The position numbers were made by a program, and so were the translations under genes. Source: a virus. Taken from it: a DNA stretch of 37,729 bases. The stretch is from positions 1 to 37,729 of IMG/VR virus record IMGVR_UViG_3300008267_000140. One strand, written 5' to 3'. Position 1 is the stretch's first letter; each line of letters begins with the position of its first letter. Below are positions 14,988-36,975 of this stretch, one piece after another. The notes under the pieces were generated by a model. That model saw nothing but the letters and a program-made list of their open reading frames with translations, was not told the DNA's origin and searched no databases.

Positions 14988-14990
14988 TGA

Positions 14991-15022
14991 AAAGCAGGGA
15001 TTGTTTATCCCTGCTTTTTTTT
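14991..15022 (+). terminator. Rho-independent terminator before the tape measure gene
   Basis: AAAGCAGGGAT (14991-15001) and ATCCCTGCTTT (15007-15017) form a perfect 11-bp stem with a 5-base loop, followed by T residues. It ends the sheath-tube-chaperone transcript. Confidence 0.95.
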
Positions 15023-19573: not shown

Positions 19574-19912
19574 ATGATTGATAGATATATAGATAGAAGA
19601 ATTGTTAAAAACAATTCAGAATTATATAGTGATATTTTCAATGATAGAAATTTAAATTTTATCGAACATTATACAACTCCGTTCTTTATACTTCCATCTA
19701 TTCAGCAGTATAAAAATTTAAATTCAGTAAAACATGTTTGGAAAGTTGGAGATAGATTTTATAAATTAGCTAGTCAATATTATGGCGATCCAAAAGATTG
19801 GTGGGTTATTGCAAAATTTAATAATAAACCAACAGAATCTCATGTAAAAATTGGCGATATTCTATATATACCTACACCAATACATCAAGCACTAGCTGCA
19901 ATGAAAGGTTAG
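19574..19912 (+). CDS. LysM-containing baseplate wedge protein (gp53-like)
   Basis: 112 residues starting 2 bases after the previous stop. Residues about 1-50 are a polar lead-in with EHYTTPFFILP. Residues about 55-105 form a LysM-like fold: HVWKVGDRFYKLASQYYGDP, then WWVIAKFNN, then IGDILYIPTP. This is the arrangement of T4-like baseplate wedge subunit gp53, whose LysM-like domain helps to lock the wedges together and is not used for cell-wall lysis. Position among the baseplate genes supports this. Confidence 0.85.
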   Translation: MIDRYIDRRIVKNNSELYSDIFNDRNLNFIEHYTTPFFILPSIQQYKNLNSVKHVWKVGDRFYKLASQYYGDPKDWWVIAKFNNKPTESHVKIGDILYIPTPIHQALAAMKG

Positions 19913-22900: not shown

Positions 22901-25397
22901 AGAGAAAAAAACAAAAACAACTAAAAAAAACTTTAAAGACGTATTTAGAGCTTCTGGTGACGTTGGTGTTACTATTACGGTCAATGCTACAGATTTTTCC
23001 AACTGGAAAGTTTTAAGAACCGGTGCTTCAAACAATCCACAAGATGTTGTTACTCAAGCAGCAATAAAAGCTGAACAAGCAAAAGTTGATGCTGCTTTAG
23101 CTAAAAGGACAACTCTTTCAAGCAATATAGATGGTACGTTTACTGTAAAATTTATATATTTAGGTGATATTTTTGATATATTTAGCGAATTAATTAATGA
23201 TCCAGATTATATAGGTGATCCATCTGATAGACCAAGAATGATATTATCTGATTTTTATTTAAGTATACCAGTTACAATAATTAAAGAAAGAATGGTATAT
23301 AAAACTTATAATCTAAATTTAGCTGATATACCCATATCAATTGAAATTTTAAAAGCATTTTTATTAGAAAAATTTATAAAACCAAGAGTTTCAACATTTT
23401 CTCTTATTTCTATAATAATTGGTATTTTAACTGATATAGTTGGTCCTGCTGTATCTCCAAGTTATTTTGGAAACAAAGCTGTATTTAACAAAATGATAAG
23501 AGCATCAACTCTTACATTGTGCCTGCCAGCTAAATTTGAAGAAAATACTTATAAAGATACTATTACAAATCAGCCTATTGATAAAGCTTTTGGAAATTAT
23601 ACAGTTACAGGAAATGGGTTAACAAAATTAACTGAAAGACTTTATGAAAAATTAGAAAATAATTTGTTACTTAATTATTATGTTATTTACTGCTCTAATC
23701 AATTGCCTAATTCAATAATTATGAATGGAGGAAATTATGAAAAAGATGAAAAAATGGGAGTCTACCATTTTTTTGTAGGATCAAATAAAGGTTGCTTAAG
23801 AAGAATTAATTTTTCAAGAACCGACACTCCTTTTTATGCTGAAGCAAAAATGATGTCTAGCCAAGGGCATAAAGGAACTAATTTAAGACTAAGAGAAGTT
23901 TTTAATGCAACTATAGAAATGTTTGGTAATAATATTTTTAGACCTGGGGATTTTGTTTATATAGAGCCTCTTTTTTATGTTGGACAAGCAGCATACGATT
24001 TACAAACAAAAATAGGTCTTGGTGGTTATTACATGGTGATAGATGTTGACACAAAAATATCTAACGATCAATATGTAACTGTTGCAAGGTTAGTTTTTTA
24101 TGGAACAATCGAAAAGAAGGGAGATGGCAATAAATTTGTATTACCAGCAGCTGAAGAAAACGAAAACATCTATGACGAAGAATCCGAGAGTTCTGTTTCA
24201 CCTACTGCGGCAGCTTCTGCGCCGCAAGGAAGTAGTGGTGCTGCTGCTACTAGCCCAGAACAAACTACACCAACAGCAAGTGTTGACACTACTTCATTTG
24301 ATAAAGTCATAATAAATCTTCTCTCTCAGGTTGATCGTATGGGTGAGCAAAGAGCAAAAAAATTATGGGATAATGAAAAAACATTTACACAACAAGAAAA
24401 AAGTTATCTTCAAATAGAATTTTCTGCAATCCCAGAAGATGAAAGAACAACAAATAATTCTCCTGGTAGACTTAAATTATTTCAAATATTAAAAGTCTTT
24501 AAAGAAAGCTCTGATCAAGCTCCTAATATCACCGAAGGAGGTGTACAAATTTTAGAGGAAAGAAATTATAATACTGTAGAAAGCAGTAAGATCACAGCTA
24601 TTCATGAAGAAATAAATAAATTAGCAAGAATAACAAAAGGATCAGAAGGCAAGTCGATTCCTAAAGATCAAATTGGTAAAGGACTAGGAAAGTTAACCAT
24701 TGCTGCTCTCAAACATTTTAACTTATATATTGGAACAGATTTTAAATTATATAAAAGTAAAAGCGGCACTAGCGCAACAACTACAGACGTTGTTCAGGCG
24801 GAGGCTTCTCTTACAGAGCAATCATTACCAAATCAAAAACAGTTTAATGTAGATAATTTATTTACTATAATAAAAGAGGGAAAAAATATAGATTCAATAA
24901 CATTAAATATGCTTGAAGGGGTTTATATTATTCGTTTTAGAAAAAATGCTTACAAAGGTCTTGAAAAGCAGACGATAAATTATCGTGGTTCATATCAACA
25001 ACTTCATTTTAAAAAGCAAGAACAGAACTCAGAAAATAAAATAATTTATTCTATAGTTGAATATCTAGAAACTAAATATGATTTATATCCATTCATTGGA
25101 GCCGCAGTTTATGACAAAAAATATTACGATCAATTAATTAAACACATGAGTAATAATAAGGATAGTTTTTTTATATATTTTAATAAAGACGGAACTTCTG
25201 ATATTTATTTATTAAAAGAAGAACCTTTTAATATAACAAGTAATTTTATAAAATTAAATGATAAAAATCAGTATACAGGTAAATCAGCGTTTTTTATTGA
25301 CTCTTCAACAAAAGATGGATATGGCAATAAAACGCGTGATTTATTGTTAAAATTTGCTAATGACAATAGTATAAAGTATTTTGAGGAGAAATCATAA
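19917..25397 (+). CDS. Giant baseplate structural protein, 1826 residues
   Basis: Much larger than any single T4 baseplate protein. By eye it falls into: a charged helical N-terminus (about 1-400), an Ala/Gln-rich linker (about 405-445), a mixed alpha/beta part (about 450-780), a coiled coil (about 780-860), a beta-rich region with hydrophobic core segments (about 860-1395) ending in GCLRRINFSRTDTPFYAEAK and FRPGDFVYIEPLFY...GLGGYYMVIDV, a Ser/Ala/Thr/Pro linker (about 1425-1460), and C-terminal helical plus beta domains. The GDFVYIEP / GGYYMVIDV part recalls hub or wedge proteins of environmental T4-like phages. It may fuse functions split among several T4 proteins. A C-terminal enzymatic domain was looked for and not recognised. 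The stop overlaps the next ATG by one base. Confidence 0.65.
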   Translation: MASEFQVPDEYTKEQRKIKKEVDIKEADKYIKRLKDRFENGYSYIYTPEEINARRRNHTFFGDDDKLERSARYRYAGTTAGVTFVNSQKKALKNLLDFFNLSINSKDFDILEFEFNRDGQARYIDGEKIKLFGKNGSKYKKFFIDESNAVRNIDKIPENVFGIRRLCKELDPYFYSYFYDYCAYKIIGTISNASNVQVKDARDKIFKNEHFTEALKLQFRYELIKQLCFYLTSNNLKEEDVIGEEFSEFIFNTYIRNINSDINSKYNFFQIYKYIKDDEYDFKDYPGDKFESGDWDATRYEIFKYGATTEARKEWSDAVKSILKISSVEILNKRFKDINTYTVTFLYIYLLQCLYNSFAVWERILEDTAPRSRREGSAEDNFKDLISEHLKEYFKPFIKAPKKKEREQESVPSGDSSGTSDAAAQAEAKKTIQQARIATANRLRLNEQAALMLNVDYLNVTKPESAATDFKYRRDMTYDNFILFRNENIDTSRNVGTESTQTDNLNIVSRLLKSNGTKYLLKDIPAHILSALTPTIKIYKVFYPDKSGLLPNSKGYPWRVPFDDIPMSFKRNDTSDDKEAILTSGFQEDVFKEIVEGKGRFHSIGIKSFSYKYVGTNPAEVNTNIQAELQLYFQDVSDIIKTFNVHAGHPNFSPSISDTDKSALESARLKFCYADLIADQPREEKIAGVYRYNEKYFRIKVILGYSDIPTHVINDLATAGVDAALVHEAIKSNKVAFYLTPVNHDLTFEENGSIILKIKYQAAITSVLSTINALEIAKGVYKSKKDLEKKLLEARTNLIKYKQPSNAEAGAADRTKLTTALREARANVSAFELDLENKKNQIYSEIFTRLVNLDNRNKHFIYSANFSKEALGVTSGGQAQGQVAYKPETLQSARNVRKFKISSWEQTDKLDLGTVKRANIVLYDPYENIYGTVGDDSAIVNSSNYTTEFGEIPQKIIDTINNVIDKVNKITKAGNSSINDESLIKKIKITEETTAEKKTKTTKKNFKDVFRASGDVGVTITVNATDFSNWKVLRTGASNNPQDVVTQAAIKAEQAKVDAALAKRTTLSSNIDGTFTVKFIYLGDIFDIFSELINDPDYIGDPSDRPRMILSDFYLSIPVTIIKERMVYKTYNLNLADIPISIEILKAFLLEKFIKPRVSTFSLISIIIGILTDIVGPAVSPSYFGNKAVFNKMIRASTLTLCLPAKFEENTYKDTITNQPIDKAFGNYTVTGNGLTKLTERLYEKLENNLLLNYYVIYCSNQLPNSIIMNGGNYEKDEKMGVYHFFVGSNKGCLRRINFSRTDTPFYAEAKMMSSQGHKGTNLRLREVFNATIEMFGNNIFRPGDFVYIEPLFYVGQAAYDLQTKIGLGGYYMVIDVDTKISNDQYVTVARLVFYGTIEKKGDGNKFVLPAAEENENIYDEESESSVSPTAAASAPQGSSGAAATSPEQTTPTASVDTTSFDKVIINLLSQVDRMGEQRAKKLWDNEKTFTQQEKSYLQIEFSAIPEDERTTNNSPGRLKLFQILKVFKESSDQAPNITEGGVQILEERNYNTVESSKITAIHEEINKLARITKGSEGKSIPKDQIGKGLGKLTIAALKHFNLYIGTDFKLYKSKSGTSATTTDVVQAEASLTEQSLPNQKQFNVDNLFTIIKEGKNIDSITLNMLEGVYIIRFRKNAYKGLEKQTINYRGSYQQLHFKKQEQNSENKIIYSIVEYLETKYDLYPFIGAAVYDKKYYDQLIKHMSNNKDSFFIYFNKDGTSDIYLLKEEPFNITSNFIKLNDKNQYTGKSAFFIDSSTKDGYGNKTRDLLLKFANDNSIKYFEEKS

Positions 25398-26719
25398 TGT
25401 ATGATCCAAGTTATAGACCGGATTTAAGTACAAATAAAAATTTTTCTGCTGGTTCATTATACGAAGCAAGAACTTTTTATAATGATGGTACGATTCCTCA
25501 TATTATTGACAATGCACAAATTGCAAAAATACCTTTTTCTGACATCTATAGAGAACATGCATTTTATGGAATTTTAGACAACAGCGGAGATGTAATATCA
25601 CCGTTTATAACAGACGTTTATATGGATATTTGTGGTACTACTGAGAATGGAGAAAATTTATATTTACAAAACTTTGTAATAAAAGCTTTAGCTGATCTAA
25701 AAAAGGATTTAAAAAATAAATTATTAACTTGTGTACCACCAGGTGAATCTGTACAAAAAGCTGTTAATTCACCTTTTTTTAATTTTCAAGTTGTTGATGC
25801 TGTTAAGATTAATAATTCTGTTGCTACTGCTAATTTGGCTTATGCAGCAGTTATGGGATCTGCGTTTAAAAGAAATATAGCAAATAAAAATGAAATAAAC
25901 TCAAAAATAATTTCTGTAAAAGATTTTATATATTATTTTACTGACTTTTTAATTAAAAATAAGTTAGGAGCGGTGACTAAAACAAGAATGCAATGTAATA
26001 CTAGTTTTTCATACTTTAATTCAGGCTTAACATTTAGTATATCTCAAGATGACACAGGCGATGATGAAAATAAATTTGATAAATATTACAATGACATAGG
26101 GTTTGAGCAATTTTGTACATCTTGTATACAGTATGGATTTATGATAGATAAAAATATTCCGTTTATTTTGACTGCTGATCTATCTTCGCCTTTTATGAAA
26201 AAATATTGGATTAATGATAATATTCAGTCAATTGAAGATTTATTGTCGAAAAGATACTATAAAGTTTATAAAGAAGATTTTGATGGAATTAAAAAATTTT
26301 ATTGGGTTGCTTATTTACATTATGTTGATGAAAATCCATATATACCACAAGATTTAAAAAATGTTTGTATAAAAGAAATTCTACAGTATGTTCAAAACTT
26401 AGAAAATTATAAAAGACTTGATTTTTCTGATGGGCTAGGATACTATAAGTTTACATCTTATATTAATGAAAAATTTTGGATTAGACTTTATTTATATATG
26501 AAAATTCAAGATATGAATTTAGATATTGAACAGAAACAGTTTGAAAATACATTAAATACTTGTTATTCATATTTAAATTTTAGTTTAGATATGTCCATTA
26601 AATATATAAATTCGTTATTTGACGAAACAAAAGGTCATGAATATTTTGATTATTTACAAAGAATCGACACTATGGTAGAACAGCCGGTGTCGTCAGGACA
26701 CGTTAAACTAAAATTATAG
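25397..26719 (+). CDS. Structural protein of unknown function, baseplate cluster
   Basis: 440 residues, overlapping the giant baseplate gene by one base (TAATG), with GAGGAG at 25383-25388. It is Tyr/Phe/Asn/Lys-rich, with no signal peptide. A distinctive segment GFMIDKNIPFILTADLSSPFM lies at about residues 245-265, of a type I associate with virion proteins of marine T4-like phages. Operon position suggests a baseplate or virion component. I cannot assign a T4 counterpart. Confidence 0.5.
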   Translation: MYDPSYRPDLSTNKNFSAGSLYEARTFYNDGTIPHIIDNAQIAKIPFSDIYREHAFYGILDNSGDVISPFITDVYMDICGTTENGENLYLQNFVIKALADLKKDLKNKLLTCVPPGESVQKAVNSPFFNFQVVDAVKINNSVATANLAYAAVMGSAFKRNIANKNEINSKIISVKDFIYYFTDFLIKNKLGAVTKTRMQCNTSFSYFNSGLTFSISQDDTGDDENKFDKYYNDIGFEQFCTSCIQYGFMIDKNIPFILTADLSSPFMKKYWINDNIQSIEDLLSKRYYKVYKEDFDGIKKFYWVAYLHYVDENPYIPQDLKNVCIKEILQYVQNLENYKRLDFSDGLGYYKFTSYINEKFWIRLYLYMKIQDMNLDIEQKQFENTLNTCYSYLNFSLDMSIKYINSLFDETKGHEYFDYLQRIDTMVEQPVSSGHVKLKL

Positions 26720-26726
26720 GTGAAAA

Positions 26727-27929
26727 GTGCTGTTTCAAACATTAGATGAAAAAAGTGAATGTCCCATTATTTATGCTGATAAAAAATTTTCAAAAATAGA
26801 TCTTAAATCTGACTTAACTCATACATGGGATTACTGTGGGTTACTCAAAAATCTTGACATAGATTATGCAAATTTATTTGTAGAGGGAAAATCCTTAGAG
26901 GATTCATGCCCAGAGCACTTAAAAATTGATTATAATGAAATAATTAAAAAGTTAAAAGCAATTATTAATTCTTTCGTTCAAGCAAAAATTAATATGAATG
27001 ATAGTTGTTTTTATGATTTAGTACCTAAAAATTTTTTGCAAGACTATTGCGAATTAAAAAATAAAATATGTTTATATGTTTTTGATAATTATAAAAAACC
27101 AATTGAATATGAGTTTTTATTAAAGTTTACTAAAATTATTACAGATATAAAAAATAGAAAATTAAATGTTGATTTAGAATGTCTAAAACCAAAACTTGCA
27201 GACAATAAAACACTACAATTTTATAAAAAAATGTATAATCAAGAAAACTATATATCATATAATTTATTTGGTTCAATAACAGGTAGGTTAACAACAGCAA
27301 AAAATAGTTTTCCAATACAAACACTTTCAACGCAGTATAGAAGTATAATTAAACCAACAAACGATTGGTTTGTTGCATTTGATATGAATGCAGCAGAACT
27401 TAGAACATCTCTTGGTTTACTAGAAAAAACACTACCAGAAGAAGATTTATATGAATTATTAAAAAATGATATTTTTAATGATTCTTTGAGTAGGGCCGAG
27501 GTAAAGAAAGCAACTACATCATGGCTATATAATATTAATAATACGTCTGAATATTCAGAAAAACTAGACGATGTTTTTGAAAAAGATCGACTGTTAAATA
27601 GTTATTGGGACGGTAAATATGTTTACACTCCATTTAATAGAAAAATAGAATCAGATAAGTTTCACGCTATTCCTTACTTAAATCAAAGTACTTTTATTGA
27701 TTTATTTCATAGACAAGCAATAAAAGTAGATGACTTTTTGAAAGATAAAAAATCATTTATTTCTTTTTTTCTGCACGATGAAATTGTATTAGATTTTACC
27801 GATGATGAAAAAGAATATATAATTAATCTAATTAAAATCCTAGAAGATACACAGTTTGGAAAATATATTGTAAATGTTAAAGTTGGCAAAGATTTTGGAA
27901 GTATGAAAAAATTAAAATTAAAGGTATAA
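26727..27929 (+). CDS. Minimal family A DNA polymerase-like protein
   Basis: 400 residues from a GTG start with AGGTG just upstream. It carries the family A polymerase core in order: the GRLTT...FPIQTL segment (186-200), motif A D219-x-x-x-x-E224-L-R226, the motif B helix R256-x-x-x-K260 with Y268, a Y-V-Y-T-P-F-N-R segment (298-305), an A-I-x-x-x-x-Q320 element, and motif C H350-D351-E352. These correspond to Pol I D705/E710/R712, R754/K758/Y766, Q849 and H881/D882/E883. The Pol I Phe762 position is Thr264, and the usual Gly after Tyr is Asn269. There is no room for 3'-5' or 5'-3' exonuclease domains: the N-terminal 150 residues resemble at most a thumb. It lies in frame with the late structural genes and 1 base before the tubulin-like gene. 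Activity and role are unknown. Confidence 0.8.
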   Translation: MLFQTLDEKSECPIIYADKKFSKIDLKSDLTHTWDYCGLLKNLDIDYANLFVEGKSLEDSCPEHLKIDYNEIIKKLKAIINSFVQAKINMNDSCFYDLVPKNFLQDYCELKNKICLYVFDNYKKPIEYEFLLKFTKIITDIKNRKLNVDLECLKPKLADNKTLQFYKKMYNQENYISYNLFGSITGRLTTAKNSFPIQTLSTQYRSIIKPTNDWFVAFDMNAAELRTSLGLLEKTLPEEDLYELLKNDIFNDSLSRAEVKKATTSWLYNINNTSEYSEKLDDVFEKDRLLNSYWDGKYVYTPFNRKIESDKFHAIPYLNQSTFIDLFHRQAIKVDDFLKDKKSFISFFLHDEIVLDFTDDEKEYIINLIKILEDTQFGKYIVNVKVGKDFGSMKKLKLKV

Positions 27930-27930
27930 A

Positions 27931-28752
27931 ATGACTATTATAGGTCTTGGATCAGCTGGTTGTAATATTGCAGAAATGTTTGAAAACAATAAAAATCATG
28001 TATTATTAATTGATTCTAATATAGAAGGAGATAATTGTTTTTGTTTACCCGAATACGACAATCCAGAAGACTATGAAAATAAAATACCAGATTTAAAAAA
28101 TTTTTTATCTATTTCTCAAAAAAATGTGTTGTTTATTCTTGGTGGGTCTGGTAAAGTTACGGGTGCTACGTTAAAGATCCTAGAATCTATTAAAGATAGA
28201 AATATATTTATTTTATATATAAGACCAGATATTGAATTGCTGGGAAACATAGGAACAATGCAAGATAGACTAACATTTAATGTTCTACAACAATACTCAA
28301 GATCTGGTATTTTTAAAAAAATGTATATTATTAGTAACTCTAATCTAGAGTCTATAATAGGAGACATTCCAATAATAGGATATTATGAAACTTTAAATAA
28401 AGTTATATATAATATAATTAACTTTTTAATCGTTGATGATGATAAAAAACCTATTATCGACTCCACTACTCAAACAAAAGATATATGTAGAATTTGTACT
28501 TTTGGAATTTATGATTTAGAATCAGATATGGAAAAAATGCTATATGAATTTGATTTTATTGATGATAAATGTTACTGTTTTGTGATTAATGAAAATACAT
28601 TAAAATCGGATGGCAAATTATTTAAAGATATTAAAGAAAAAATGAAACAAAAAAGCTTAAATAATGTTAAGATATCATATAAAATATACAGTACACAAAG
28701 TGAAATAAATTACTGTTATGTCACTCAATACACTAGAAAAGTTCAAGAATAA
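27931..28752 (+). CDS. Divergent tubulin/FtsZ-like GTPase
   Basis: 273 residues. The N-terminal beta strand and loop MTIIGLGSAGCNIAEMF match the FtsZ opening (V-I-G-V-G-G-G-G-x-N). VLFILGGSGKVTGAT (66-80) matches the strand plus the T4 loop GGGTGTGAA, with several substitutions (K75, V76). Then ILYIRPD, an R-L-x-x-x-x-L-x-x-Y helix, and YIISNSNLESII (132-143) follow FtsZ VVT-P, the helix, and LIVIPNDRLLEVV. A further helix (ETLNKVIYNIINFLI, 153-167) fits the segment before the T7 loop, and acidic residues lie beyond it. The protein is shorter than FtsZ and lacks the C-terminal tail. Phage tubulins (PhuZ, TubZ) are known to position or carry DNA, but this one is not obviously of either type. 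It ends the late operon. Confidence 0.75.
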   Translation: MTIIGLGSAGCNIAEMFENNKNHVLLIDSNIEGDNCFCLPEYDNPEDYENKIPDLKNFLSISQKNVLFILGGSGKVTGATLKILESIKDRNIFILYIRPDIELLGNIGTMQDRLTFNVLQQYSRSGIFKKMYIISNSNLESIIGDIPIIGYYETLNKVIYNIINFLIVDDDKKPIIDSTTQTKDICRICTFGIYDLESDMEKMLYEFDFIDDKCYCFVINENTLKSDGKLFKDIKEKMKQKSLNNVKISYKIYSTQSEINYCYVTQYTRKVQE

Positions 28753-28766
28753 ATTTCTTGCTTTAC

Positions 28767-28823
28767 ACTCTAGCATTGGCTGTGCTAGAGTCATCAACAG
28801 TTGGTGAGCGGCTCTCGACCAAC
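28767..28823 (+). promoter_or_regulatory. Two hairpins in the gp32 leader
   Basis: Hairpin 1 is ACTCTAGCA (28767-28775) with TGCTAGAGT (28783-28791), a perfect 9-bp stem and 7-base loop, without a T run. Hairpin 2 is GTTGGT-GAG (28800-28808) with CTC-ACCAAC (28814-28823, one bulged G), ending one base before the AAGGAG ribosome-binding site of the ssDNA-binding protein gene. T4 gp32 represses its own translation by binding a structured leader, so an analogous operator is plausible here. Hairpin 1 could also process or stop the upstream late message. Confidence 0.55.
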
Positions 28824-28836
28824 AAGGAGAATAAAA

Positions 28837-29622
28837 ATGGCTATTGATCTATCAAAAATGCAAGCAAAACTAAAGGCTGTAACCGAAAAACCAACCAAGA
28901 AGACAACAGTATTTTGGAGTCCAAAGGAAGGAACAGCATACAATGTGCGTGTTCTTCCAACACCAGATGGTGATCCATTCAAGGAATACTGGTTCCACTA
29001 TGATCTAAGCAAGCAAGGTGGCTTTCTATGTCCAAAGAAGAACTTTGGCGAATCATGCGCTGCTTGTGATTTTGCATCAAAACTATATCGTGAAAAAACT
29101 GAAGAAAGTGCCAAGATGGCTAAAAAGTTCTTGGCTCGTCAACGATTCTTTTCAGCTGTCGTAGTTCGTGGTGAAGAAAGCGAGGGTGTTAAGGTATGGG
29201 GATATGGCAAGACTGCCTATCAAGATTTAATCGGTCTAGTGCTGAATCCAGACTATGGTGATATTACTGATCCAGAAGAAGGTCGTGATCTAAATCTTGT
29301 TGCAAATAAAAACCCTGGTCAATCTTATCCAATCACTAAGATTACTGCACGTGTTAAAACTTCCAAGCTCTGTAATTCAGAAACTCAATGTAAGGAGTTT
29401 ATGGACGGTCTACCCGACTTTGATGCGATTCATAATCGTAAAACTTCACAAGAAGTTGAAGGAATTCTAGATGAGTACCTAGCTACAGATCATACGGAGG
29501 AAGAGACAGAGAAGTCTTCAACTGAAACTGTTAAATTTGGAGCCAAGCCGGTTGCTAAACCAGCAGCTAAAAAATCAAATCCAGTAGATGATGCATTTGC
29601 AGAACTTGGACTTGATTCTTAA
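28837..29622 (+). CDS. 32: Single-stranded DNA-binding protein (gp32-like)
   Basis: 261 residues from ATG 28837, chosen because AAGGAGA is at 28824-28830; the in-frame ATG at 28801 upstream lacks a site and would run through the leader hairpins. The N-terminus is basic (residues 1-22), a cooperative-binding type arm. H54, C65, C74 and C77 reproduce the H-C-C-C zinc site of T4 gp32 with similar spacing. The C-terminus (about 205-261) is acidic, then Lys/Ala-rich, ending with DDAFAELGLDS, the type of tail that contacts replication partners. It coats single-stranded DNA for replication and recombination with the downstream UvsX and helicase. Codons are less AT-biased than in the late genes, suggesting high expression. 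Confidence 0.92.
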   Translation: MAIDLSKMQAKLKAVTEKPTKKTTVFWSPKEGTAYNVRVLPTPDGDPFKEYWFHYDLSKQGGFLCPKKNFGESCAACDFASKLYREKTEESAKMAKKFLARQRFFSAVVVRGEESEGVKVWGYGKTAYQDLIGLVLNPDYGDITDPEEGRDLNLVANKNPGQSYPITKITARVKTSKLCNSETQCKEFMDGLPDFDAIHNRKTSQEVEGILDEYLATDHTEEETEKSSTETVKFGAKPVAKPAAKKSNPVDDAFAELGLDS

Positions 29623-29644: not shown

Positions 29645-29682
29645 AACGGGGAACAAGTAAAGAAAACTTGTTCCCCGTTTTC
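29645..29682 (+). terminator. Rho-independent terminator between gp32 and uvsX
   Basis: AACGGGGAACAAGT (29645-29658) and ACTTGTTCCCCGTT (29666-29679) form a perfect 14-bp stem with a 7-base A-rich loop, then more T. It ends only about 13 bases before the uvsX start, so uvsX is read only by read-through or from a promoter upstream of the hairpin. Confidence 0.9.
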
Positions 29683-29694
29683 ATAGGAGATATA

Positions 29695-30834
29695 ATGGCA
29701 AAGAAACAGACAGAGCAAGTAGGTAAAATATCTATTTCTGATATGAGAGCCTTAATTAATAAGGCTAATGGAAAGGTAGTTGCATATGATCTTCAAGAGG
29801 ATAATCCCACAGAAGTTACGGACTGGATTCCTACTGGATCACGTTGGCTTGATTCCATTATATGCAGAGGTAAGCTGGCTGGTATTCCTGTTGGAAAAAT
29901 ATCAGAATTGGCGGGAGAAACAGCAAGTGGAAAAAGCTATATGGCTGCACAAATAGCAGGAAATGCCCAAAAAATGGGAATTACTGTAGTCTATTTTGAT
30001 AGCGAAAGTGCAATTGATCCAGAGTTTCTACAAAAAGCTGGTTGTAATATTGAAGACTTGCTTTATATTCAAGCGGATTCTGTAGAATTTGTTTTAGAAA
30101 CTATTGAAAGCCTTATGACTAGCTCGAATAACAAATTTCTTTTCATATGGGATTCTGTTGCACTTACACCTAGTAAAAGTGATATTGAAGGAGACTATGA
30201 TCCACAGTCATCTATGGCAGTTAAACCACGTATTTTATCCAAAGGTTTATCAAAATTGGTACAACCAATTGCCAATAAACAATGTACATTTCTAGTACTT
30301 AATCAACTTAAAACAAATCTAAATGTAACTAATCCAAAATATGCTCAAGATAATGAAAAATATACAACACCTGGCGGCAAAGCTTTGGCTTATTCATATA
30401 GTTTAAGAATATGGTTAACTGGCGTTAGAGACAAGAATAGCTACGTAAACGATGAACGTGGATATCGAATCGGATCAGAAGTAAAAGCAAGGCTTGAAAA
30501 ATCTCGTTTCGGAACTCACGGAAGAGAGTGCTTCTTTAAGATTCTTTGGGGCGCAGAAGATGTTGGTATTCTAGACAATGAAAGCATCTTTACTGCGATT
30601 AAACCTTTCATTAAGCAAATGGGTGCGTGGTATGAGATAGAGGTAGAAGGAAAGCCTCGTAAATTCCAGAGCACAAATTGGGATCAGCTAATGAAAGAAG
30701 AAGCATTTAAGAATACTGTTCTTAAAATCATGGAAGAAGAGATTATTGTAAAATTTGATACACGTGAAGGTGATGCAAAAAATTACTACAATCTTGAAGG
30801 CGAAGCTTCAGAACCACAACTACTAACAGAATAG
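29695..30834 (+). CDS. uvsX: UvsX/RecA-like recombinase
   Basis: 379 residues from ATG 29695 with TAGGAGA upstream; a further upstream ATG at 29668 lies inside the terminator stem and is rejected. Walker A is GETASGKS (74-81). Walker B is FLFIWDS at about 150. A downstream VLNQLK segment matches RecA loop/beta regions, and a TTPGGKAL segment matches the conserved T-P-G-G-x-A-L motif. The protein forms filaments on single-stranded DNA and catalyses strand exchange. Its neighbours gp32 and helicase are its normal partners in T4-type recombination-dependent replication. A UvsY mediator was not identified with confidence; the next small gene is one candidate. Confidence 0.95.
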   Translation: MAKKQTEQVGKISISDMRALINKANGKVVAYDLQEDNPTEVTDWIPTGSRWLDSIICRGKLAGIPVGKISELAGETASGKSYMAAQIAGNAQKMGITVVYFDSESAIDPEFLQKAGCNIEDLLYIQADSVEFVLETIESLMTSSNNKFLFIWDSVALTPSKSDIEGDYDPQSSMAVKPRILSKGLSKLVQPIANKQCTFLVLNQLKTNLNVTNPKYAQDNEKYTTPGGKALAYSYSLRIWLTGVRDKNSYVNDERGYRIGSEVKARLEKSRFGTHGRECFFKILWGAEDVGILDNESIFTAIKPFIKQMGAWYEIEVEGKPRKFQSTNWDQLMKEEAFKNTVLKIMEEEIIVKFDTREGDAKNYYNLEGEASEPQLLTE

Positions 30835-31148: not shown

Positions 31149-31162
31149 TACTATTTCTTAAT

Positions 31163-31172
31163 ACTATTTATT
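31163..31172 (+). promoter_or_regulatory. ACTATTTAT motif copy after the uvsX operon
   Basis: ACTATTTATT, identical in its first nine bases to the copies at 3539, 6860 and 8711, lies immediately before a terminator stem and 59-68 bases before the small membrane-protein gene at 31231. The terminator between motif and gene makes a simple promoter reading less likely here. Confidence 0.25.
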
Positions 31173-31173
31173 G

Positions 31174-31214
31174 GATAGACCAATAGTTTTATTACTATTG
31201 GTCTATCTTTTTTT
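31174..31214 (+). terminator. Rho-independent terminator
   Basis: GATAGACCAATAG (31174-31186) and CTATTGGTCTATC (31195-31207) form a perfect 13-bp stem with an 8-base loop, followed by seven T. It ends the uvsX transcript. Confidence 0.95.
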
Positions 31215-31230
31215 ATAGGAGAAAGGAGAC

Positions 31231-31407
31231 ATGCTTGTATTATTATTAGTTCTTGTTGCATCTTGTATTTACATTGTTTTAAAGTTACCTGAAGTTAAAG
31301 AAAGTAACCGTGAATTAGAAAAAGCAGAGGAAGAAAGAATAAGAGCTAAGATAAGAGCAGAAAATCTTAAAAGAAAGATAAGAAAAATAAAGAAAGATAA
31401 GGAATAA
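31231..31407 (+). CDS. Small membrane-anchored, charged-helix protein
   Basis: 58 residues, too short for many gene finders. GAAAGGAGAC at 31221-31230 directly precedes the ATG. Residues 2-17 are hydrophobic (LVLLLVLVASCIYIVL), followed by a Glu/Lys/Arg-rich helix to the end. V-A-S-C at residues 9-12 could be a lipobox, but there is no positive N-region, so a single transmembrane anchor is more likely. The layout resembles an inner-membrane spanin or other small phage membrane protein; nothing proves a role. It sits alone between two terminators. Confidence 0.6.
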   Translation: MLVLLLVLVASCIYIVLKLPEVKESNRELEKAEEERIRAKIRAENLKRKIRKIKKDKE

Positions 31408-31428
31408 AGCACAGCTTGACAATTAATT

Positions 31429-31462
31429 CCCACTCTGGCATCTTGTTCAGAGTGGGCTTTTT
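31429..31462 (+). terminator. Rho-independent terminator
   Basis: CCCACTCTG (31429-31437) and CAGAGTGGG (31448-31456) form a 9-bp stem with a 10-base loop, followed by C and five T. It isolates the small gene at 31231 from the next operon. Confidence 0.9.
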
Positions 31463-31474
31463 ATTGGAGCAGAT

Positions 31475-31738
31475 ATGATCAAGATAGAAAAAATATCAGA
31501 TAATATTTCTACAAAAGGCATGTATATGCCAATTTATATGGTTGATAATGTAGAGAGCTGGAATGAATTCACTCAATGGCTTTATTCTTTAGAAGATAAA
31601 GAAATGACACTTATGATGCCAGGAAATATATATCATTTTTATTCAGCAGAAGAGCGGCTACAGTTTGTTTTTGGATTTATAAAAGCTTGGGACGTTATTG
31701 ACGACACATACTTAAAAAAGTGTCATGGAGATGTATAA
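31475..31738 (+). CDS. Hypothetical protein before the UV endonuclease gene
   Basis: 87 residues with GGAGC before the ATG. It is a soluble mixed protein with many Met, Trp and Tyr residues (for example NVESWNEFTQWLYSLEDKEM at about 28-47). No known motif is recognised. The stop overlaps the next ATG (TAATG at 31736-31740), so translation is coupled to the UV-damage endonuclease. Function unknown. Confidence 0.55.
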   Translation: MIKIEKISDNISTKGMYMPIYMVDNVESWNEFTQWLYSLEDKEMTLMMPGNIYHFYSAEERLQFVFGFIKAWDVIDDTYLKKCHGDV

Positions 31739-32667
31739 TGGCTTTAGGATTATGTTGTCAGTGGCTAGAAGAACGCACAAAACGCGATGGTACTGTTGTA
31801 TATGAAAATGCAATCGATGAAAAATCTTTACAACTTGGAGCATACAAAAATGGCAAGTACTCTAGAGAAAGAATTATTGACACGTATCGAAATAATGTCG
31901 ATGAACACTTGCGAATTTTTCCTAAGATCATTGAAGGAGGCATCAAGTCTTTCAGATTGTCAAGCAGCCTCTTCCCGCTTTATGAGTTCTGTTCAGAACT
32001 TGCACGAAATGATCAGCTCATATTATCGGGACTTGCCAGCCTTGGAAAGCTATTTAAAGAAGCTGGAATCAGAGTCACCACCCATCCAGGTCAATTCACG
32101 GTGTTGTCTTCCGACAAACAACAAGTAGTAGAAAATTCAATTAAGGAGTTAGAATATCATGCGTGGATTTTTGACCAAATGGGCCTTGATCACTCACCTT
32201 ACTATGCGATCAATATTCATGGCGGTAAGGCGAAAAGATCAGAGCAACTTATAGATGTAATTAATTCTCTTCCAGATAATGTAAAATTAAGGCTTACGCT
32301 AGAAAATGATGAGAAATGCTATTCTATCAGTGATCTTGTTCAGATTGCTAGTCGTTGTAATATCCCTGTTGTATTTGATTCTCACCATCATAATTTCAAC
32401 AATGGAGGTCTTGAGCCGATTGATGCTTTTAATCTTGCGATTTCTACATGGGGTGAGATTAAAAGTTTGCAACATCTATCCAACACCGAACCTGGCAGAG
32501 AAAATTCTAGCTTCAACGATAAACGAGCGCATTCAGAAATGATACATTATGTGCCAGATTTTCAACTTAAAGCAATACAAGAAGATAGAATTGATGTTGA
32601 TATCGAAGCTAAACTAAAAAATCTTGCAATTTTTAAAATGAGAAGGGATTTTAATGTCGAAGTTTAA
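31738..32667 (+). CDS. uvsE: UV-damage endonuclease (UvdE/UvsE-like)
   Basis: 309 residues from ATG 31738. It begins with the family's G-L-C-C-Q-W segment and carries the TIM-barrel metal-ligand motifs in order: RVTTHPGQFTVLSS, YYAINIHGG, LRLTLENDEKCYS, PVVFDSHHHNFN. UvdE cuts the strand 5' to UV photoproducts without a glycosylase and belongs to the xylose-isomerase-like barrel family. It would repair phage DNA after sunlight exposure, supporting a sunlit habitat. The end overlaps the next gene by 14 bases. Confidence 0.9.
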   Translation: MALGLCCQWLEERTKRDGTVVYENAIDEKSLQLGAYKNGKYSRERIIDTYRNNVDEHLRIFPKIIEGGIKSFRLSSSLFPLYEFCSELARNDQLILSGLASLGKLFKEAGIRVTTHPGQFTVLSSDKQQVVENSIKELEYHAWIFDQMGLDHSPYYAINIHGGKAKRSEQLIDVINSLPDNVKLRLTLENDEKCYSISDLVQIASRCNIPVVFDSHHHNFNNGGLEPIDAFNLAISTWGEIKSLQHLSNTEPGRENSSFNDKRAHSEMIHYVPDFQLKAIQEDRIDVDIEAKLKNLAIFKMRRDFNVEV

Positions 32668-34192: not shown

Positions 34193-34333
34193 ATGATTAA
34201 AATACTTTTATTAACTACGATTTTCTCTTGTGCTACAACAAACTTCAGAGAAACAAATCAAGACAAAAAAGAACCTGCAGTTTGTAGAAATACACTACAG
34301 CACGATATACATCGTGATCAGTGTATGAGGTGA
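34193..34333 (+). CDS. Tiny probable lipoprotein
   Basis: 46 residues from ATG 34193, with GAGAGGAA upstream. The N-terminus MIKILLLTTIFSCATTNF has one Lys, a hydrophobic core and a Cys at residue 13, like a lipoprotein signal, although Phe at the -2 position is not ideal. The mature part is short, polar, and has two more Cys. It could be an outer-membrane lipoprotein such as a small o-spanin or an exclusion factor; no function is shown. Its end overlaps the start region of the nuclease gene. Confidence 0.5.
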   Translation: MIKILLLTTIFSCATTNFRETNQDKKEPAVCRNTLQHDIHRDQCMR

Positions 34334-34335
34334 AT

Positions 34336-35301
34336 GTGGATAAAAAAAGAGTATTAATCATAGACGGTAATAATAACTATTTTAGAGCATATATTGTAGA
34401 TCCAAGTGTATCCACCAATGGTCAACCTATTGGTGGCATAACTGGTTTTTTAAAAATTTTACAAAAATTAGTTCGTGAAACCAACCCAAATAGAATTGTA
34501 ATTTGTTGGGATGGAAAAGGTGGATCTTCCAAAAGAAAGCTTATGAACAAAAATTATAAAGATGGCAGAAAGCCTATCCGTCTTAATAGAAATATTAAAA
34601 ATCTCTCTGACAACGAAGATCTTGAAAATAAAATTTGGCAAATGACACGCCTTGTTGAATACATCAATGAAATGCCTGTTATCCAGCTATTATTAGATGG
34701 AGTAGAGGCAGACGATATCATTTCAGCTGTAGCATCACATCAGTCAGTAAAAGACTATAATAAAATAATTGTTTCTAGCGACAAAGACTTTATACAGCTA
34801 TGTAATGACACCACTATTCTTTATAGACCAGTACAACAACAGATCTTAAATAAGAAAAAAATTATAGAAGAATATGGAATTCACCCTAATAATTTTTGCC
34901 TAGCTAGGGCGTTATCTGGTGATAAATCTGATAATATTGATGGTGTTGATGGAATAGGTTTACCGACAGTTGCTAAAAGATTTCCTTTTCTATCAGAAGA
35001 AAAAGTGTACACAATACAGGATATTGTGAAGTATTCAACAGATACAGAATCAAATTTAAAAGCGTATCAAAATGTTGTTTTACAAGAGTCTAGAATTAGA
35101 GATAATTATAAAATAATGCAACTTGATATGCCAAATATATCTGTTCAAGATTCACAAAGAATTGAATATACTTTAGAGAATAGTGAATGTACATTTAATA
35201 AAATGGATATTGTAAAAATGATGATTGAGGATGGTTTTCCTTCATTAAATCTTGAAGAACTATTTATTCATCTAAAAAAAGTTGTACTTGAAAACTGCTG
35301 A
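34336..35301 (+). CDS. rnh: RNase H / 5'-3' exonuclease (FEN family)
   Basis: 321 residues. I choose GTG 34336 because GAGG (34327-34330) stands five bases before it and the protein then starts at the conserved strand KKRVLIIDGNNN; in-frame GTGs at 34321 and 34330 are alternatives. Metal-binding acids appear at D10, in CWDGKGG, in DGVEADDIISA and in VSSDKDF, followed by the helix-hairpin-helix SGDKSDNIDGVDGIG. This is the T4 RNase H type nuclease that removes Okazaki primers. Translation is probably coupled to the tiny lipoprotein gene it overlaps. The helicase gene follows. Confidence 0.9.
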   Translation: MDKKRVLIIDGNNNYFRAYIVDPSVSTNGQPIGGITGFLKILQKLVRETNPNRIVICWDGKGGSSKRKLMNKNYKDGRKPIRLNRNIKNLSDNEDLENKIWQMTRLVEYINEMPVIQLLLDGVEADDIISAVASHQSVKDYNKIIVSSDKDFIQLCNDTTILYRPVQQQILNKKKIIEEYGIHPNNFCLARALSGDKSDNIDGVDGIGLPTVAKRFPFLSEEKVYTIQDIVKYSTDTESNLKAYQNVVLQESRIRDNYKIMQLDMPNISVQDSQRIEYTLENSECTFNKMDIVKMMIEDGFPSLNLEELFIHLKKVVLENC

Positions 35302-35334: not shown

Positions 35335-36717
35335 ATGTCTTTTGTAAATGAAAAGTCATCATTTGAAAAGTTTGGAACTAAATTTCAAGAAAATCTTGTC
35401 CAGTTAATGCTGGATGATAGATCTTTTTGTGATCAGATTAGCGAAGTTCTAGATATTCAGTTTCTAGAACTAAAATATCTACGTCTGTTTGTGGAGAAAA
35501 TGTTTGAATACCGTAAAAAATACGGAACTCATCCTTCAAGAGATACTATTACTACAATTCTAAGATCTGATATTGATAAAGAAAACGATCTTTTACAAAA
35601 ACAAGTAAGAGAGTTTTATGCTCGTATTCAATCTAATGATTTTAGTATTGATGGCGAGCAGCATATAAAAGATATTTCTCTTGATTTTTGTAAGAAGCAG
35701 AAATTAAAAGAAGCTATGATTAAGAGCGTAAGCTTAATTCAAAATTCATCCTATGATGAAATCAGTAAAATCATTAACGATGCTCTAAAGCTAGGTACAG
35801 ATAATGATTATGGTTATGATTTCTTTTTAGATTTCGAAAAGCGGTTTGAGCTTAAAGCTCGTAATCCAATTTCTACTGGGTGGGAGCTTATTGATAATAT
35901 CACAAAAGGCGGTCTTGGTCGTGGAGAATTGGGAGTTGTTATTGCTCCTACTGGTGCCGGAAAGAGTATGGCATTAGTTCATTTGGGAGCTATGGCTCTA
36001 CAAGCTGGCTTAAATGTGGTACACTATACTCTTGAATTACAGGATAAAGTTGTAGCTTTGCGATATGATTCTTGTATTAGCGGAATCCACCTTACAGACG
36101 TAAGGGAGCAGAAGGAACATGTATGGGAAAGCATTAAAGATGTTCCTGGTAAGCTTATTGTAAAAGAATACCCAACCAAATCAGCCACTACCAATACAAT
36201 TAAAAATCATCTTGAAAAACTAAAACGTAAAGATTTTAAAATTGACATGGTCATTGTTGACTACGGTGATCTAATTAAACCTATCTCTGCACAAAAAGAG
36301 AAACGAAACGAACTGGAGAGCATCTATGAAGAACTCAGAGGACTTGCACAAATCTACGGATGTACACTATGGACAGCCTCTCAAACTAACCGTAGCGGAC
36401 TTAACGCAGAAGTCATTACAATGGAATCAATTAGCGAAGCCTTCAACAAATGCTTCGTTGCCGATCTCATCTTTACCATCTCAAGAACAATCAAAGATAA
36501 AAACACTAATGAAGGACGAATCTTCGTTGCAAAAAATCGCAACGGACCAGACGGATTAGTTTTTCCAATCTTTATGGATACTGGTAATGTAAAGATTAAA
36601 GTACTTTCACAGAGTACCGAAACAGCAGTAGACTTGATGGAGAAGGCAACTCAAAATCAAGAAAAATTATTGAAAGAAAAGTATAAGAATTATAAAAAAG
36701 AACAAAGAGCTTCTTAG
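35335..36717 (+). CDS. 41: Replicative DNA helicase (gp41/DnaB-like)
   Basis: 460 residues with TTGGAGGA before the ATG. The N-terminal helical domain (about 1-150) is of the gp41 type. The RecA-like motor has Walker A PTGAGKS (205-211), a catalytic Glu in HYTLELQD, Walker B VIVDYGD (about 305-311), and QTNR in the polar H4-type motif (about 345). As a hexamer it unwinds the fork ahead of the polymerase and recruits primase. Bases about 36,290-36,560 use markedly more C-ending codons than the rest of the gene; no motif is lost there. Confidence 0.93.
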   Translation: MSFVNEKSSFEKFGTKFQENLVQLMLDDRSFCDQISEVLDIQFLELKYLRLFVEKMFEYRKKYGTHPSRDTITTILRSDIDKENDLLQKQVREFYARIQSNDFSIDGEQHIKDISLDFCKKQKLKEAMIKSVSLIQNSSYDEISKIINDALKLGTDNDYGYDFFLDFEKRFELKARNPISTGWELIDNITKGGLGRGELGVVIAPTGAGKSMALVHLGAMALQAGLNVVHYTLELQDKVVALRYDSCISGIHLTDVREQKEHVWESIKDVPGKLIVKEYPTKSATTNTIKNHLEKLKRKDFKIDMVIVDYGDLIKPISAQKEKRNELESIYEELRGLAQIYGCTLWTASQTNRSGLNAEVITMESISEAFNKCFVADLIFTISRTIKDKNTNEGRIFVAKNRNGPDGLVFPIFMDTGNVKIKVLSQSTETAVDLMEKATQNQEKLLKEKYKNYKKEQRAS

Positions 36718-36726
36718 GAGAATAAA

Positions 36727-36975
36727 ATGAAAAAAGTATTAATGTTTTCAGCTACATGGTGTGGTCCATGCAGACAAGCAAAGCCGGTGTTTAACTCACT
36801 AAAAGAGTCAATTAATCATGTAGATTTTCAAGTTGTAGATATTGATGAAAATCAAGGATTGGCTACTGATTATAATATCACGGGTGTTCCTACATTTGTT
36901 GTGTTAGAAAACGATAAAGAAGTACAGAGAATTGTAGGTGGTGCTAACGTAAATAAACTAAAAGAAATTTTATAA
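36727..36975 (+). CDS. Thioredoxin-like protein
   Basis: 82 residues with AGGAG upstream, shorter than E. coli thioredoxin (about 108). Active site WCGPC is at 11-15, and the cis-Pro loop GVPTFVVL follows near residue 60. It probably reduces the ribonucleotide reductase that starts 13 bases after it, replacing the host thioredoxin or T4 NrdC. The N-terminal strand of full-length thioredoxins is missing, as in other small phage forms. Confidence 0.93.
   Translation: MKKVLMFSATWCGPCRQAKPVFNSLKESINHVDFQVVDIDENQGLATDYNITGVPTFVVLENDKEVQRIVGGANVNKLKEIL

Follow-up and report, generated by a model that had tools for sequence, protein, structure and literature searches.

A predicted family A DNA polymerase core without nuclease domains between the virion and replication modules of a T4-type phage

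Gene order around the polymerase gene

The sequence analyzed here (the window) is a 37.7-kb viral record that carries T4-type head and tail genes. It encodes a T4-type major capsid protein, a sheath, a tube and gp25, with an RM378-like divergence from the Tevenvirinae, and the best relatives of its major capsid and sheath proteins include LR756508, Mel-JY01, immuto and RM378, at 32-49% identity, the last three being the closest phages in culture. By best-match identity, its phage is placed in the "Far-T4" group, genome fragments of which have been reported with DNA polymerases of unspecified kind (PMC4360716).

The gene under study encodes a 400-aa protein, named here POL, and belongs to a series ordered as gp25, two structural-side genes, POL, a tubulin/FtsZ-fold gene, gp32, UvsX, a 5' nuclease and a DnaB helicase. 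The features of the region, with the number of loci in which each gene was found at this place, are the following:

19574..19912, + strand: gp25-like baseplate wedge protein (phrog_7145, E 1e-9), with which the recognisable virion module ends; 45/45 loci
25397..26719, + strand: g440, a 440-aa protein encoded directly upstream of POL, structural by position only; 58/59 loci
26718..26723, + strand: Shine-Dalgarno-like AGGTGA, read from the sequence, overlapping the stop of the upstream gene
26727..27929, + strand: POL, predicted 400-aa family A DNA polymerase core (motifs, Pfam, AlphaFold2, Foldseek)
27931..28752, + strand: g273, tubulin/FtsZ-fold protein according to its structure model, starting 1 nt after POL; 64/64 loci
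28801..29622, + strand: gp32-like single-stranded DNA binding protein (PF08804, E 3e-11; phrog_1192, E 7e-25); 48/48 loci
29668..30834, + strand: UvsX/RecA-like recombinase (family match); 32/32 loci
31173..31208, + strand: intrinsic-terminator-like hairpin (15 bp stem and T run) that closes the gene string running from gp25 through POL to UvsX
31720..32667, + strand: UvdE UV-damage endonuclease (PF03851, E 1e-58); 10/35 relatives, in the clade of the window
34321..35301, + strand: stand-alone 5'-3' exonuclease of the Pol I 5'-nuclease family (PF02739, E 3e-32); 30/30 loci
35335..36717, + strand: DnaB-like replicative helicase of the T4 gp41 type (phrog_19, E 2e-75); 27/27 loci

These counts take only the loci with enough flanking sequence, drawn from the best 80 of at least 208 IMG/VR viral contigs that bear a POL relative. 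The order is intact in all loci that are long enough, except one that lacks the gene preceding POL. Genes for a dCMP deaminase, a thioredoxin and a ribonucleotide reductase are also found downstream of POL. T7 DNA polymerase uses thioredoxin as its processivity factor. The thioredoxin-like protein of the window (36727-36975) adjoins the helicase and a class II ribonucleotide reductase, a position that suggests a partner of the reductase rather than a polymerase factor.

POL lies where the virion module gives way to the replication module, and not inside the former. A preliminary description of this DNA had located the gene within a virion-gene operon, following baseplate genes. In fact, virion-side genes are found upstream, but the genes downstream are those of replication and recombination, and the term baseplate holds for gp25, whereas g440 has no recognisable family and the rest are structural by position only. 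The g440 gene evolves fast.

The POL open reading frame starts with GTG, 7 nt after the preceding stop, as previously noted, and ends 1 nt before the next start. The AGGTGA motif overlapping the stop of g440 suggests that the translation of POL may be coupled to that of g440. The only strong terminator-like hairpins found on the + strand of the window are at 14989-15019, 31173-31208 and 31429-31456. Since there is no terminator from the tail genes to UvsX, a single transcript may extend from the tail genes through POL and gp32 to UvsX, and POL could be expressed late. The T4-type late promoter TATAAATA did not occur in the window above chance frequency, and none was found shortly before POL on its strand. 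The last two hairpins are contained in the gap 31149-31474, with a small open frame between them, and an Rfam search that included this gap gave no match.

A family A polymerase core and its relatives

A profile-profile alignment (hhalign) of POL with E. coli Pol I (E 3e-14) located all the motif residues named in the preliminary description at the places given there. The equivalences are R187 to R668, D219 to D705, E224 to E710, R226 to R712, R256 to R754, K260 to K758, T264 to F762, Y268 to Y766, N269 to G767, Q320 to Q849, and H350, D351 and E352 to H881, D882 and E883. Thus, the residues D705, E710, R754, K758, Y766 and D882 of motifs A, B and C are all present in POL, with D219 and D351 as the catalytic aspartates. 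POL is about 20% identical to the other members of family A, and the Pfam model DNA_pol_A (PF00476) matches it at E 4.7e-7 with 29.5 bits, slightly below the curated cut-off of 34.3. The same model was found in 63/64 members of the POL family at E <= 0.01 (best 3e-21), and the family profile retrieves Taq Pol I at 1.5e-13, so the assignment to the Pol A families is borne out by profile searches.

The AlphaFold2 model, calculated from an alignment of 64 sequences (POL and its viral relatives), has a pLDDT of 94.3 and a pTM of 0.91. It shows thumb, palm and fingers domains in the right-hand arrangement of family A. Of the PDB matches shown by Foldseek for this model, the best is Bst Pol I (E 2e-13, TMq 0.61); they comprise Bst, apPOL, Klenow, Taq and pol nu, which all belong to family A. 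The lack of a palm/fingers geometry, which had been named as a possible argument against the assignment, is therefore not observed.

POL shares with the Pol I enzymes of E. coli, Bst and Taq the thumb-palm-fingers fold and the full catalytic motif set, but it has shorter fingers, an Asn in place of Gly767 and neither of the two nuclease domains, as the preliminary description had proposed. Neither a motif nor a domain of a 5' nuclease is found in the 400 residues, and this activity is encoded by the separate gene at 34321-35301. There is no 3'-5' exonuclease in POL either; the N-terminal part is too short to hold a whole domain, active or vestigial, and PF01612 (3'-5' exonuclease) gave no match in the 8 family records searched. 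POL is, according to its model, a family A polymerase core without both nuclease domains of Pol I.

A tblastn search of POL against 50,697 GenBank phage records gave no match, and iterated profiles were needed to find orthologues in immuto, Mel-JY01 and the 484-kb uncultured phage LR756508. Among the 84,980 bacterial and archaeal genomes searched there was a single match, 42% identical (CP070664.1, 2247046-2258236). It sits in a WOR-3 MAG, on a "chromosome" of 2.8 Mb, and comes either from a genuine integrated phage or from phage DNA that was assembled into the MAG. A literature search, by which subscription journals were scarcely covered, found no paper on an exonuclease-free Pol A core subfamily, and the POL family appears to be large and undescribed.

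The protein gp001 of Flavobacterium phage vB_FspM_immuto (YP_010114413, 441 aa), annotated as "DNA polymerase family A", is recognized by the POL-family profile, retains both catalytic aspartates and is encoded between gp25-side genes and the SSB-UvsX-5' nuclease-DnaB series. However, it is only about 21% identical to POL and has no tubulin-fold gene directly downstream. Its longer N-terminus could contain a decayed exonuclease domain, a weak suggestion since such a domain appears in a forced global alignment only. In Microcystis phage Mel-JY01, WWT39333.1 (408 aa, annotated as "hypothetical protein") belongs to the same family by profile (E 8e-37) and also precedes the SSB-RecA-5' nuclease-helicase genes, but this phage has a family B polymerase. 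The branch formed by immuto, Mel-JY01 and LR756508 differs from POL in carrying His for Glu710 and Ala for Glu883.

The equivalents of R668, D705, K758, Q849 and D882 are invariant in the 84 proteins of the family alignment, and Y766 (83/84), R754 (81/84) and E710 (79/84) are nearly so. A replacement of the catalytic aspartates in relatives, which would have spoken against an active polymerase, is thus not found, both being retained in 84/84. Position 883 is more variable (Ser in 50 proteins, Glu in 28 and Ala in 5). The preliminary description had also called attention to two unusual residues at the nucleotide site. One of them, Asn for Gly767, turned out to be a trait of the family (71/84), whereas Thr for Phe762 is restricted to the clade of the window (12/84), with Phe in 67/84. 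The dN/dS values of all 11 close POL pairs range from 0.05 to 0.09, which together with the invariant residues indicates that the POL gene is under purifying selection as an enzyme.

The replicase of these phages

It had been anticipated that a family B replicase of the gp43 type would be encoded elsewhere in the genome. T4 gp43 and POL both come from phages with T4-type virion genes, but they belong to unrelated families (B and A, respectively), and no gp43 homologue was found in the relatives of the window. Neither the window nor any of 17 relative records gave a match to PF00136 (family B), in a search that does detect this domain in the positive controls Mel-JY01, RM378 and LR756508. Instead, 7/8 family records searched (G001 and G003-G008) encode a family C polymerase of the DnaE type, about 1150 aa long and located about 14-20 kb downstream of the POL core; the remaining record stops a short distance beyond the core. 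The DnaE of G003 (104563-108018) provides an example with a PHP-like N-terminus, and the PDIDxD motif is present in all four DnaE proteins examined for it. Since the window ends before the place where DnaE is expected, its own replicase is deduced from these relatives. No homologue of the T4 clamp and clamp loader (gp45, gp44 and gp62) was found by phmmer in four large relatives. These large relatives are metagenomic records, not necessarily complete, and the absences reported for them depend on the sensitivity of Pfam and HMMER. A DnaE-type family C polymerase is the apparent replicase of far-T4 phages.

Other relatives use different enzymes. Mel-JY01 encodes a PolB besides the POL-family core. 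LR756508 contains a 575-aa frame matching Pol III alpha (at about 47415-48068), family B pieces and the core. In immuto, the core (L011:1-1326) is accompanied by a 777-aa PolA that includes a proofreading domain (L011:37898-40231), so that this phage encodes two family A polymerases, one full-length and one minimal. The core keeps its place between gp25 and SSB/UvsX in the DnaE records, in Mel-JY01 and in immuto alike. This fixed place beside three unrelated replicases, of families A, B and C, argues that POL is probably an accessory enzyme rather than the genome replicase.

That POL could itself be the main replicase, relying on separate proteins for its proofreading and 5' nuclease activities, was attractive as long as the PolB and PolA searches gave nothing else, the core being the sole DNA_pol_A match in 16/17 relative records and no PolB being found in any. 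This option was dropped once DnaE was found, and we now hold it to be highly improbable, because a complete DnaE-type polymerase is present in nearly all the relatives searched and the cultured relatives own other full replicases.

In its relevant section, a survey of jumbo phages describes PHP-DnaE replicases as well as PolB accompanied by a split mini Pol III alpha, with no mention of a Pol A core devoid of exonuclease. Rhodothermus phage RM378, which has related head and tail genes, also encodes polymerase and exonuclease separately (p092 and p024). However, its split polymerase matches PF00136 (E 1e-34) and belongs to family B rather than to family A, and no homologue of the 400-aa core was found in RM378 by profile.

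Possible functions of the core

Bacterial Pol I uses its polymerase and 5' nuclease activities for primer removal and for the completion of excision repair. The phage supplies both of these activities, together with gp32 and, in the clade of the window, UvdE, and this suggests a gap-filling role. POL would be the accessory, exonuclease-free polymerase module of a "split Pol I" that fills gaps with the stand-alone 5' nuclease, an interpretation whose chances we judge to be about even. The genome would be copied by another enzyme (the DnaE-type family C polymerase in the clade of the window), the separate 5' nuclease would remove RNA primers or damaged flaps, and the POL core, acting together with this nuclease and the gp32-like protein of the phage, would fill the resulting gaps behind the fork. 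In the clade of the window, UvdE would start an excision repair that the POL core and the 5' nuclease would finish. ATP- or NAD-dependent ligase families were not found in 12 records, and the last step, the sealing, would therefore need the host ligase.

The association of core and 5' nuclease would not be obligatory, since T4-type 5' nucleases also serve phages without the core. With PF01612 absent from the 8 family records, no separate proofreading exonuclease was found as a constant partner; a PF00929 stand-alone exonuclease was considered for this place, but it is found in G001, G002 and G007 only. The preliminary description had suggested a repair role, and repair or gap filling is indeed the best fit.

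The main rival of the split Pol I is a synthesis coupled to recombination, in which POL would extend the 3' ends of D-loops made by UvsX, in break repair or in recombination-dependent replication. We regard this as possible, although with a rather low probability. It would account for the constant place of POL just upstream of gp32 and UvsX, which come next in order in 48/48 and 32/32 loci, and this position is maintained in immuto, Mel-JY01 and LR756508 regardless of the replicase. However, the 5' nuclease and the helicase are just as constant, and POL has no recombination-specific domain. Moreover, such a role is compatible with a split Pol I, and hence the two are hard to separate by sequence.

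An unlikely proposal is that POL acts in lesion bypass or with modified nucleotides, for which the loss of proofreading and the altered residues of the nucleotide site would suit unusual templates or dNTPs. The family-wide Asn at 767, the Thr at 762 in the clade of the window, the His710 and Ala883 of the immuto, Mel-JY01 and LR756508 branch and the lack of a proofreading domain agree with it, and immuto bears a DpdA/7-deazaguanine pathway. Nevertheless, the sugar-selecting Glu710 and Phe762 are retained in most of the proteins (79 and 67 of the 84), and the residue changes differ among clades without a common pattern.

The g273 product has no Pfam or PHROG family, but its AlphaFold2 model (pLDDT 94.7) matches FtsZ, tubulin and TubZ in Foldseek (E 7e-13, TMq 0.72), and part of the N-terminal glycines are conserved. 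This fold match points to a predicted, hitherto hidden tubulin-superfamily protein in T4-type phages, which merits a separate study. It is conceivable, although we give it little credence, that POL and g273 form a "polymerase plus filament" module which, with gp32 and UvsX, would organize the recombination-linked DNA synthesis of far-T4 phages at a replication site of fixed position.

Finally, the suggestion that POL is a virion-carried or structural protein, either an injected enzyme or an inactive relic, finds no support and is very improbable: POL does lie in a single gene string with tail and baseplate genes, with no terminator between, but its catalytic residues are invariant over 84 proteins and the conserved gp32, UvsX, 5' nuclease and helicase genes downstream point to cytoplasmic DNA metabolism (a literature search found no paper on the virion proteomics of immuto).

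The split Pol I that we favor concerns an abundant and apparently undescribed subfamily of family A that has shed both nuclease domains, and whose place is fixed while the main replicase changes among families A, B and C. POL thus provides a natural experiment on the tasks for which a large phage cannot do without an accessory polymerase, and on the divisibility of Pol I into free-standing parts. Should it prove active, its length of about 400 aa would be unusually small for a family A enzyme and of practical interest.
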